Assembly: GCF_000374165.1 (NCBI RefSeq)
Contig: NZ_KB893670.1
Coordinates: 96,713-155,716 of the forward strand
Origin: Parafrankia elaeagni
GTDB taxonomy: Bacteria; Actinomycetota; Actinomycetes; Frankiales; Frankiaceae
Reading direction: 5' to 3'
Length of the DNA: 59,004 nucleotides
Positions within the stretch are counted from its first letter, which is position 1. Each line of letters opens with the position of its first letter. The translations under genes were made by a program, and so were the position numbers. Shown here one piece after another: positions 30,160 to 33,176 of this stretch. Below the pieces are notes generated by a model. That model was given only the letters and a program-made list of their open reading frames with translations. It was not told where the DNA came from and ran no database searches.

Positions 30160-32745
30160 ATGCCTCGCGACCGTCTCCGGGACCTGATCGCCGCGCAGCT
30201 GGCGCACAGCGACCTGCCCACCCGGGTCAGCGACCTGATCCTGACCACCCTCGACGCGCCCGGAGCGGGCCGGCGGGACACGGGTGACGCCAGCCCGGGT
30301 GATACCAGCCCGGGTGACACCGGCCGCGACTCCGAGCGACTCACCGCCGAAGCGGCGGTGTATCTGCGGGCGGTCAGCGTCGAGGGGTTCCGCGGCATCG
30401 GTCCGTGGGTGACCCTGCGGCTCCGCCCCGGCCCGGGGCTCACGCTCGTCACCGGGCGTAACGGTTCGGGCAAGTCCAGCTTCGCGGAGGCAGCCGAGAT
30501 CGCGCTGACCGGCGAGGGCCGCCGCTGGTCCCAGCGGGCGGCGGTGTGGCGCGGAGGCTGGCGCAACCTGCACAGCGGCGGGACGGTCCGCATCGAGATC
30601 ACCTGCACGGTCGAGGGGATAGCCGGCCCGGTCACCGTCACCCGAAGCTGGCAGGACGGCGACGGCCTCGCCGAAGGACACGGTGCGGCGGCGACGGCGG
30701 ACGGCGGGCGGCTGTCGACGTCCGGCTGGGACGCGGCGTTCTCCACCCACCGGCCGTTCCTGTCCTACGCGGAGCTGAGTGACCTGCTCGGCGGCCGGCC
30801 GAGTGCCATGTTCGACGCGCTGCACGCGATCCTCGGCCTCGACACGGTCGCGGACGTCGCCCGTACGCTCACCGCGGCCCGCGGCAGGCTCACCGAGGTC
30901 GCCCGCCGGCTGTGGGAGGAGCATCCGCCACTGCTGGCGGCGCTGCGGGCGAGCGGCGACCCGCGCGCCGCGCAGGTGGCCGACGCCCTCGGCGACCCGT
31001 CCCACCTCGACCTGGACCGCGCATGGGCGCTCGCCGCCCAGCCACCCCCTGCCCCGGGTTCCGCGGTCCCCCCGGGCCAGGCGGTGACCGAGGAGCTCCA
31101 GCACCACGCCCGGCTCGCGGCCCTGGCCGCGCTGCGCGTACCGGCGTCTGGCGAGGTCGCGGTCCTGGCCGCCCGGCTGCGCGAGCTGGTGGCCGAGGAG
31201 ACCGGGCTGCTCGGGACCGCGATCGGCGACGCGGCCCGGCTCGCCACCCTGCTCGCCGCGGCAGTCGACCACCACGAGCAGCACTCCGACGCCCACGCGG
31301 ACGCCAGCGCGGACGCCAGCGCGGACGCCAGCGCGGACGCCAGCGCGGCGGCGGAGCGCCCCTGCCCGGTGTGTGGCACCGGCCGGCTGGACGCGACGTG
31401 GTCGCGCACGGCCACCGCGGAGCTGGCCCTCCTGCGGGAGCGGGCCGCGCCGCTGGCCGCCGTGCGGGAGGAGCTGGGGCGTGCCCTCTCCGAGGTCCGT
31501 CTGCTGGTCGCCCCGGTGCCCGCCGCGCTACTCAACCCGGTGCCCGCCGCGCTGGCCGCCGCACAGGCCGGGGACTGCTCCACACCGGCCCGTGCGGCGG
31601 GCACTGCCTGGGAACGTTGGGCAGCGCTGCGGCTGCTGACCGATCCGTCCGCGGTCGCGAACGGGCTCGCGGCTGCCCACCCACCGCTGCGCGAAGCGGT
31701 GGAGGAGCTGGCCACCGCCGCGGCGAAGGCCCTCGACCAGGCGGACGCCGCATGGCTGCCCCTGGCCGCGCGGGCCACCGCCTGGGTCGGGGCTGCGCGC
31801 AAGGTCCAGGCCGACGCACAGCAGCTGGCGGACGTCCGCCGCGCCCTGGAGTGGTTGCGGGAGGCGGCCCAGGACCTGCGCGATCAGCGGATCCGGCCGT
31901 TCGCGCAGGAGTCCGCCGGTATCTGGTCGCTGCTGCGCCAGGAGAGCAACGTCGATCTCGGCCCGGTGCGGCTGACCGGCAGCGCGAACCAGCGACGGGT
32001 CGATCTCGACGTCACCGTCGACGGGGTGAACGGCACCGCCCTCGGCGTGATGAGCCAGGGGGAGCTGCACGCCCTCGGCCTGGCGCTGTTCCTCCCGCGG
32101 GCGACGAGCGAGGCGAGCCCGTTCCGGTTCCTCGTCATCGACGACCCGGTCCAGTCGATGGACCCGGCGAAGGTGGACGGGCTGGCCCGGGTGCTCGCCC
32201 AGGTGGCCGAGACCCGCCAGGTCGTCGTCTTCACCCACGACGACCGGCTCGCGGACGCCGTCCGGCGGATACGACTGCCGGCCACGGTGCTCGACCTGGT
32301 GCGCCGGGAGGGATCACGGGTCGAGCTGCGCGAGAACCTCGACCCGGTCGAGCGGCACCTCGCCGACGCGCGCGCCCTGGTCCGCACTGCCAGCCTGCCG
32401 CGCGACATGGCGGCGATGCTGGTCCCGGCGATGTGCCGGACGGCGGTCGAGACGGCGTGCAACGAGGCGGTCCGGCGCCGCCGGCTGGCCGCGGGCGCGC
32501 GGCACGCGGACGTCGAGGCTGCCCTGACGGCGGCGCACTCGGTGACCGAGAAGGCGGCACTCGCGCTGTTCGACGACGCCCGCCGGGCCCGGCTGGTGCT
32601 GCGCCAGCTGGACGGGCACGCGCCGTGGGCGGCGGACACCTTCCGTGCGCTGCGTGACGGGGTGCACGTCGGCTACGGCGGCAACCTCGCCGCGTTGATC
32701 CGCAACACCGCCCGGCTGGCGGACCACTTCCGCTCGCTCGCGTGA
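30160..32745 (+). CDS. SMC/RecF-like AAA ATPase with zinc-hook-like CxxC
   Basis: An 861-residue ABC-type ATPase related to SMC, RecF and Rad50. Residues about 98-107 hold Walker A (TGRNGSGKSSF). The central helical part has CPVC near residue 402, a possible zinc hook, preceded by an Ala-Asp-Ala-Ser repeat. The signature motif is MSQGELHALGLALFLPRA, then Walker B RFLVIDDPVQSMDP and the H-loop VVVFTHDDRLADAVRR. After the ATPase comes a helical C-terminus of about 120 residues with an R-x6-H (FRALRDGVH) that looks HEPN-like. It overlaps the next gene by 4 bases (GTGA). Such ATPases with HEPN partners occur in anti-phage or tRNA-cutting systems; DNA repair is the alternative. Role inferred. Confidence 0.85.
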   Translation: MPRDRLRDLIAAQLAHSDLPTRVSDLILTTLDAPGAGRRDTGDASPGDTSPGDTGRDSERLTAEAAVYLRAVSVEGFRGIGPWVTLRLRPGPGLTLVTGRNGSGKSSFAEAAEIALTGEGRRWSQRAAVWRGGWRNLHSGGTVRIEITCTVEGIAGPVTVTRSWQDGDGLAEGHGAAATADGGRLSTSGWDAAFSTHRPFLSYAELSDLLGGRPSAMFDALHAILGLDTVADVARTLTAARGRLTEVARRLWEEHPPLLAALRASGDPRAAQVADALGDPSHLDLDRAWALAAQPPPAPGSAVPPGQAVTEELQHHARLAALAALRVPASGEVAVLAARLRELVAEETGLLGTAIGDAARLATLLAAAVDHHEQHSDAHADASADASADASADASAAAERPCPVCGTGRLDATWSRTATAELALLRERAAPLAAVREELGRALSEVRLLVAPVPAALLNPVPAALAAAQAGDCSTPARAAGTAWERWAALRLLTDPSAVANGLAAAHPPLREAVEELATAAAKALDQADAAWLPLAARATAWVGAARKVQADAQQLADVRRALEWLREAAQDLRDQRIRPFAQESAGIWSLLRQESNVDLGPVRLTGSANQRRVDLDVTVDGVNGTALGVMSQGELHALGLALFLPRATSEASPFRFLVIDDPVQSMDPAKVDGLARVLAQVAETRQVVVFTHDDRLADAVRRIRLPATVLDLVRREGSRVELRENLDPVERHLADARALVRTASLPRDMAAMLVPAMCRTAVETACNEAVRRRRLAAGARHADVEAALTAAHSVTEKAALALFDDARRARLVLRQLDGHAPWAADTFRALRDGVHVGYGGNLAALIRNTARLADHFRSLA
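31297..31350. repeat. 12-bp tandem repeats in the ATPase gene
   Basis: Four copies of GACGCCAGCGCG-like units encoding Ala-Asp-Ala-Ser, lying just before the CxxC of the predicted hook. Confidence 0.85.
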
Positions 32746-33176
32746 GCCGCCCCGGGCCGCGGCTGGATCCGGAGGTACCGCTCGCGCAGGCGGACCGGCT
32801 GCTGCGCGGCGGAGATGCCACCGACCTGCGCGGGTCATGGCCCCGCATCTGCGCCTGGCTGCTGCGGCTCGCCGTCGAGCAGGCCGTGGACGAGGTGTGG
32901 CGGGCCCACCGCCGCCCGGAGCTGATGCGGCTGCCGATGCGCGCGCAGCTGCTGCTTCTGCCGGCCTTCGTGGACGGCGCGGCCGCGGACGAGGTCGGCA
33001 GTGCCTGGTACGCGCTGTCCAGGGCCGGTCACCTGCACGCCTACGAGCTGGCACCGACCGCCGCCGAGCTGCGCCGCTGGCACCAGGACCTGTGCGCGCT
33101 GCTGCCGAGGCTGACCGAGCCGGAGCCAATACCGCCGGGCGGACTGCCGCCGAACGGACTTCGACCAAGCGGATAG
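32742..33176 (+). CDS. Small HEPN-like protein coupled to the SMC-like ATPase
   Basis: A 144-residue helical protein. Helices include SWPRICAWLLRLAVEQAVDE and MRAQLLLLPAFVDG, followed by WYALSRAGHLHAYELAP. That last segment carries R94-x4-H99, the RxxxxH motif of HEPN ribonucleases or their inactive scaffolds. The C-terminal 25 residues are Pro/Gly-rich. The GTG overlaps the ATPase stop, so both are made together. I do not know a named family; HEPN is a structural guess from motif and helix pattern. It may be an RNase effector, an antitoxin-like partner, or an ATPase accessory. Confidence 0.75.
   Translation: MSRPGPRLDPEVPLAQADRLLRGGDATDLRGSWPRICAWLLRLAVEQAVDEVWRAHRRPELMRLPMRAQLLLLPAFVDGAAADEVGSAWYALSRAGHLHAYELAPTAAELRRWHQDLCALLPRLTEPEPIPPGGLPPNGLRPSG

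Follow-up and report, generated by a model that had tools for sequence, protein, structure and literature searches.

RloC and PrrC, in which an ATPase gates a ribonuclease (RNase), are the described systems with which the locus reported here compares best. According to passages of PMC2610378, RloC has the motif Arg-X3-Glu-X36-52-His, in which the replacement of any one residue abolished activity, and the residues of PrrC are R320, E324, and H356. Sections of a HEPN survey give a general signature, Rx4-6H, with a second motif, Ex3[KR], and link at least 16 HEPN clades to restriction-modification (R-M) systems (PMC3710099), while HEPN domains are described in part of PMC13092281 as typically dimeric RNases. 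The window analysed here, a stretch of 59,004 nucleotides from the soil actinobacterium Parafrankia elaeagni, contains two overlapping genes for an ATP-binding cassette (ABC) ATPase and a small predicted HEPN protein. The analysis of their sequences indicates that this pair is most likely an RloC/PrrC-like ATPase-gated RNase split over two genes, with a predicted RNase role. We consider that it probably acts as a nucleic-acid-sensing switch controlling an RNA-cutting effector.

The earlier note on this DNA had read the small protein as a HEPN protein and had made that reading hinge on its fold. The model of the protein is a predicted four-helix HEPN bundle, in agreement with the VIA matches, and the nearest folds found by Foldseek and VIA include the HEPN toxins of MntA-HepT complexes. 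Relatives were taken from 98 genomes close to that of the window and from a collection of named species (the best 80 of 539 confirmed). The small-protein alignment contained 88 rows, namely the window protein and 87 of the 92 distinct relatives, with five having a reading frame of more than 170 residues omitted. R42, E46, and H97 occur jointly in 76 of the 88 rows, and R42, E46, and H99 in 70. The resulting triad, R42-x3-E46-x49..51-H97, lies within the spacing range of RloC, indicating that the protein fits the RloC/PrrC branch rather than HEPN proteins in general. The other kept residues are W89 (88 rows), P105 (87), R35 (86), and R94 (63). The R94/H99 motif proposed earlier is present in the window protein, but both residues are kept in only 48 of the 88 rows, and on this ground they were rejected as the active site in favour of the conserved set R42-x3-E46...H97. 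The small protein had no convincing match in Pfam, PADLOC, or NCBIfam, and its profile had only weak, unrelated matches in the PDB.

The C-terminal part of the ATPase appears to be a second HEPN-like domain, judged by its helix order and a profile match; for the small protein the fold was judged by the predicted model. The ATPase alignment contained 73 rows (the window protein and 72 of the 92 relatives, near copies and short frames having been removed by hand). The profile comparison between the tail and the small protein gave P = 4e-5 over 113 columns, and the tail was the region of the whole ATPase profile that the small-protein profile matched best. A preceding comparison of the whole ATPase with the small protein, made with 18 and 15 rows, had been weak (P 0.029) and became stronger with more rows. 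As the tail shares both its helix order and this profile match with the small protein, the unit would contain two HEPN-like domains. The spacing between Glu and His in the tail is 68-77 residues over the 73 rows. The R829-x6-H836 motif pointed out previously does exist in the window tail, but R829 is found in only 35 of the 73 ATPases; this motif was rejected as the active site for its poor conservation, the conserved set being R760, E764, and H836. The tail profile against the PDB and the tail members against Pfam gave weak, unrelated matches only. HEPN entries were also missing from the VIA list of the ATPase, which is uninformative, as ABC heads fill that list.

The small gene is located downstream of the ATPase gene in 97 of 99 loci, or 93 of 95 after the merging of four twice-fetched contigs; the same sequence is still counted twice where two metagenome-assembled genomes share it (L101, L102). 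This bears out the pairing suggested in the earlier note. Since the ATPase relatives span many genera and the small gene is nearly always downstream, the pairing exceeds chance. Genes were called by a codon-bias script that misses short genes, and the missed small genes were recovered by a frame-by-frame profile search. The two exceptions are L086, which runs off the end of its contig, and L047. In the latter (genome G071), a 695-residue ATPase ends after the head, without a tail domain or small gene, and tRNA-Thr and tRNA-Met genes come next. A 4-base overlap was found in 56 of the 93 pairs, with the starts of the small genes set by a simple scripted rule.

Among 296 genomes sampled evenly over the phylum, the ATPase was found in 15 (E ≤ 1e-30, the window's own genome counted) and the small protein in 18 (E ≤ 1e-5), including all 15 ATPase genomes. 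Sixteen of the 18 small-protein matches adjoin an ATPase sequence; the others are G281 and one weak fragment. The distribution of the pair is patchy. It is also present on two Streptomyces plasmids, one of them typed as conjugative. The small proteins of these plasmids match the profile with E values of 1e-40 and 6e-39, and the annotation of the plasmid copies includes GO:0006302 (double-strand break repair). One plasmid ATPase (L169:8980-11441) is annotated as two overlapping frames, of 748 residues and then 72 residues, the latter matching the tail. No match was found in phage records at E ≤ 1e-3.

The sequence motifs of the ATPase and the 4-base overlap of the two genes reported in the earlier note were all found in their places (Table 1). 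The ATPase open reading frame extends from an ATG at 30160 to a stop codon at 32745, and the small open reading frame begins with a GTG at 32742, sharing four bases (GTGA) with the end of the ATPase frame. The start at 30160 is supported by L031, the closest ATPase orthologue, which has the same starting residue. The ATPase had been called SMC-like; it does have an ABC head with a hook, but the top structural matches of the head are specifically Rad50 heads. In the ATPase model, long helices flank the CXXC motif of the zinc hook on both sides.

Table 1. Coordinates of the two genes and of their motifs and domains in the window.
Feature	Position	Strand	Details
ABC ATPase gene	30160..32745	+	861 residues; the head is Rad50-like, the coiled coil bears a zinc hook, and the C-terminal domain is HEPN-like
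Small HEPN protein gene	32742..33176	+	144 residues; AlphaFold2 mean pLDDT 86.4; HEPN entries are the top VIA rows
Walker A, GRNGSGKS	30454..30477	+	Residues 99-106; K105 in 73/73 rows
CPVC zinc-hook motif	31363..31374	+	Residues 402-405; C402 and C405 in 73/73 rows
ABC signature, MSQGELHAL	32050..32076	+	Residues 631-639; Q633 and G634 in 73/73 rows
Walker B and D-loop, FLVIDDPVQSMDP	32128..32166	+	Residues 657-669; D661 and D662 in 73/73 rows
C-terminal HEPN-like domain of the ATPase (predicted)	32344..32742	+	Residues 729-861; shares its helix order with the small protein
R760-x3-E764 of the C-terminal domain	32437..32451	+	R760, E764, and H836 jointly in 62/73 rows
H836 of the C-terminal domain	32665..32667	+	His in 67/73 rows
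R42-x3-E46 of the small protein	32865..32879	+	R42 and E46 each in 87/88 rows
H97-x-H99 of the small protein	33030..33038	+	Loop following helix 79-96; H97 in 78/88 and H99 in 72/88 rows

Directly ahead of the zinc hook, four exact GCGGACGCCAGC units at 31297-31344 code for a DASA-type repeat, and a low-confidence stretch of the ATPase model (residues 385-394) falls in this region. The L031 orthologue is 26 residues shorter overall than the window ATPase. The closest ATPase from a named species (among the best 80 of 539 confirmed relatives) is that of Parafrankia colletiae, whose contig is shared with G002; P. colletiae and P. soli belong to the same genus as the window genome.

The neighbours of the pair were classified by a Pfam scan of one representative per cluster, and only the clusters shared by loci were counted. 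Type I R-M genes were found in the flanks (≤ 10 kb) of 14 of the 95 loci; N6 methylases were present in all 14 of these, an HsdR-type gene in 12, and an HsdS-cluster gene in three. In 13 of the 95 loci, the R-M genes are upstream of the pair and divergent from it, with no called genes in between in nine loci and one to four in L057, L058, L068, and L104. The methylase of L113 is 7 kb downstream of the pair, and that of L043 is a sole methylase at a contig end. On the ATPase tree, the R-M label requires six changes (gains or losses), each forced by well-supported branches; the tree was made with FastTree, has many long branches that it flags itself, and bears labels for 12 of the 14 R-M loci (L040 was not included and L113 is unlabelled). 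In eight genomes from the family of the window genome, 15 HsdR-type matches were counted, and eight of them are located within 10 kb of the pair, whereas scattered matches would give an expectation of about 0.05; these genomes had been picked after their R-M neighbours were seen. Two of the seven other genomes in this count have HsdR matches, none of which adjoins the pair. At the window locus itself, no restriction gene was seen beside the pair, and the HsdR-type matches of the genome are on other contigs.

Other defence-type neighbours include an McrBC pair (two loci), GmrSD (three loci), DUF4011/MTES (three loci), and a DNA methylase with UvrD-PDDEXK (three loci, of which one lacks the second gene on the methylase side). 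In six loci, the pair adjoins helicase, RNase H-like, or DUF6361 genes. The defence context suggested in the earlier note thus holds in part: the neighbourhoods point to defence for some of the relatives, which are beside restriction or other defence genes, but many others, the window's included, are in stable neighbourhoods without restriction genes. BrxC/BrxD-type ATPase and DEAD-helicase genes adjoin the pair in L056, L059, and L104, and two of these (L056, L104) also have a TerB-type gene; the three loci perhaps represent a BREX-related system.

As had been proposed, the pair has been added to a block of syntenic housekeeping genes; gene names at this site are our readings from the sequences. 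In the window and in G002, G003, and G004, the pair is flanked by a PhoD-like and a PHP gene, and in G007 and G009 of the same family the PhoD and PHP genes are adjacent with no pair between them. The pair is also absent from G001 and G006, where the PHP-MarR-Mrp segment is inverted relative to the window, and in G005 the site is split by contig ends. In total, the pair occupies the PhoD/PHP site in four of the seven genomes of the genus searched, the window's own counted. One end of the inversion in G001 and G006 (L161, L162) is the site occupied by the pair in other members of the genus. In G005, a short decayed remnant of a related ATPase is found elsewhere, after an amidase-like gene (L165:7461-8138).

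We propose a mechanism in which two ATPases would dimerise through the head and hook and bind DNA, with the HEPN units kept inactive by the ATPase in the resting state. The trigger may be abnormal DNA, for example DNA that has invaded the cell or is broken, or the disabling of a type I restriction enzyme. As the nucleotide state of the ATPase changes, a movement driven by ATP would then join the HEPN units into an active RNase that would cut tRNA or other RNA, halting translation and growth so that the virus could not multiply. As the unit adjoins a type I R-M operon in some lineages, it may serve there as the second line of that operon, as PrrC does for EcoprrI. The typically dimeric nature of HEPN domains, together with the presence of two kinds of them here, suggests hetero-pairing, or else a division into one regulatory and one catalytic copy. 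More tentatively, and with some doubt, we suggest that the active site might form only once the HEPN domain of the ATPase tail and the stand-alone HEPN protein have paired, with the hook-linked ATPase determining through its state whether this assembly can take place; in the lineages linked to type I R-M, such a unit would guard the restriction enzyme and cut RNA once the enzyme is disabled. The joint loss of the tail and the small gene in L047, a single case, fits hetero-pairing, and the presence of the small protein alone in G281 does not. If true, the RloC/PrrC idea of a DNA-sensing ATPase that frees an RNase upon restriction failure would extend to a mainly actinobacterial family, which would add to it the distribution of the HEPN units over two proteins. 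Having a separate HEPN gene with a clear triad makes the switching from head to RNase testable by omitting or mutating single genes.

Several observations weigh against reading the pair as a defence RNase of the RloC/PrrC kind. The best PDB match of the small-protein model in Foldseek reached only E 0.13, and VIA itself cautions that helical bundles may reach such Z values through a common arrangement. Neither HEPN unit convincingly matches Pfam or PADLOC, the best members giving E 0.0013 (tail, Pfam) and 0.011 (small protein, PADLOC). The profile comparison of the HEPN units with the tails of RloC was not significant either (P 0.15 and 0.36, with four RloC-type rows). The relatives do not conserve the general HEPN motif, Rx4-6H, R94-x4-H99 being confined to the 48 rows given above, and position 97 is occupied by Arg in 10 of the 88 rows, all from Lentzea, which have His at 99 and mostly at 98 too. 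G281 (L189) encodes a small protein with an intact R-x3-E...H, flanked by two helicase-like genes and without the ATPase. The pair is adjoined by MoxR, DUF5682, VWA, or DUF5691 genes in 37 of the 95 loci (36 from Nocardia and L037) and by an SbcCD-like pair, a metallophosphatase gene and an AAA_27 SbcC-like gene, in ten Lentzea loci, which suggests stable inheritance in part of the family. A further 20 of the 95 loci, including the three other Parafrankia loci, have no gene of any counted category. The RNase, toxicity, and phage roles of the pair are themselves predictions made from the sequence. As a separate observation, the MoxR, DUF5682, VWA_CoxE, and DUF5691 genes are divergent from the pair and mostly in one fixed order.

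The same Lentzea loci, together with clustered metallophosphatase genes near L056 and L122, would suit a Rad50/SbcC-type complex for chromosome maintenance or DNA repair, in which the small protein would serve as a structural partner or as a HEPN protein that binds nucleic acids without catalytic activity. The Rad50 heads as the nearest folds, the Nocardia and Parafrankia copies residing stably among ordinary genes, and the repair annotation of the plasmid copies also favour such a complex. We nevertheless regard it as unlikely in view of the predicted HEPN fold and the R-E-H set conserved in both units, the patchy distribution, and the recurrent association with type I R-M; nor are the homologues always in repair operons, an arrangement that the earlier note had set against a defence role. 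The overlap of the two genes, the plasmid copies, and the MntA-HepT toxins among the nearest folds could likewise be explained by a toxin-antitoxin module having addiction or plasmid stability as its main role, with the small HEPN protein as a free toxin and the ATPase as its neutraliser. The antitoxin would then be a large, well-conserved ATPase bearing a HEPN domain of its own, and this, along with the R-M association, makes such a module quite improbable. Least probable by far is a DNA-scanning pair of the DndD/DndE or CxC-ATPase/DndE (Pbe) type with the small protein as a DNA-binding partner. Such pairs have the same layout, a coiled-coil ABC ATPase and a small partner gene near modification or restriction genes, but DndE consists of two ribbon-helix-helix units (both from passages of PMC10853773). 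The model of our small protein is all-helical, has no ribbon-helix-helix units, and matches HEPN entries best in VIA, and the hook is C-x2-C and not C-x-C.

Compared with known systems, the pair has no description in the literature searched, passages of PMC3710099, PMC2610378, PMC12839542, PMC13092281, and PMC10853773 included; the 2020 classification of ABC ATPases (PMC7544218), which lay outside that search, may name the family. Lamassu also uses a coiled-coil ABC ATPase in defence, and the Walker region of the window ATPase matches the LmuB models, but these matches are short and not full-length, and the partner here is a HEPN-type protein with no PADLOC match. The HepT motif is R-x4-H-x-Y. 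The small protein shares with HepT/MntA the HEPN fold and a loop of this form (R94, H99, Y101), but R94 is not conserved and the unit has no nucleotidyltransferase partner. PARIS, which the earlier note had listed among the HEPN systems, does not belong there: its effector, AriB, is described in part of PMC12409363 as a Toprim nuclease, unlike the predicted HEPN partner here. The fusions APECO1_4465 and ERFG_01251 combine an ABC ATPase with a C-terminal HEPN domain and a predicted defence role, but the survey passages that present them mention no separate HEPN gene paired with an ABC-HEPN protein (PMC3710099). PrrC with EcoprrI likewise combines an ABC ATPase and a HEPN nuclease tied to a type I R-M locus (passages of PMC2610378 and PMC3710099). 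However, PrrC is a single polypeptide without a hook insert, whereas the window unit has two genes; pairs of its type diverge from the hsd genes, and their linkage to R-M is limited to some of the relatives. Linkage to type I R-M as in PrrC is seen in the 14 loci described above, the window's own not among them.

The window unit differs from RloC in that two proteins, with two HEPN-like domains, make up its effector, and the Glu-to-His spacing of the fused tail exceeds the printed 36-52, the separate small protein fitting it at 49-51. The PADLOC family PDC-S06 is one that we infer to be RloC-type from the matches to its models. The RloC-type proteins L170 and L171 match these models over their length, whereas the window ATPase has no full-length RloC-type match and aligns with PDC-S06 over short stretches only, the best being 612-694 (best 25 of 58 families). 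Against Pfam AAA_13, the window ATPase scored 17.5 bits with a cut-off of 36; 59 relatives gave zero matches at E ≤ 1e-20, and 6 of 396 genomes of the phylum had matches at E ≤ 1e-15. The Paraburkholderia and Rhizobium plasmid ABC ATPases L176 and L177 have a CXXC and a near-C-terminal R-x3-E and match PDC-S06, and an LA2681-family HEPN gene is annotated near the L176 ATPase gene; the profile comparison of the HEPN parts with these two ATPases was not significant. Because the spacing within one polypeptide and the full-length match both fail, we set the pair apart from RloC and PrrC proper. Meanwhile, the window ATPase shares with RloC an ABC head of the Rad50 kind bearing both Walker motifs (A and B) and the signature, a CXXC hook in a coiled-coil insert, and a C-terminal HEPN region with a predicted Arg-x3-Glu...His, and the full-length profile alignment of the two families, although dominated by the head, extends into the R-x3-E of both.

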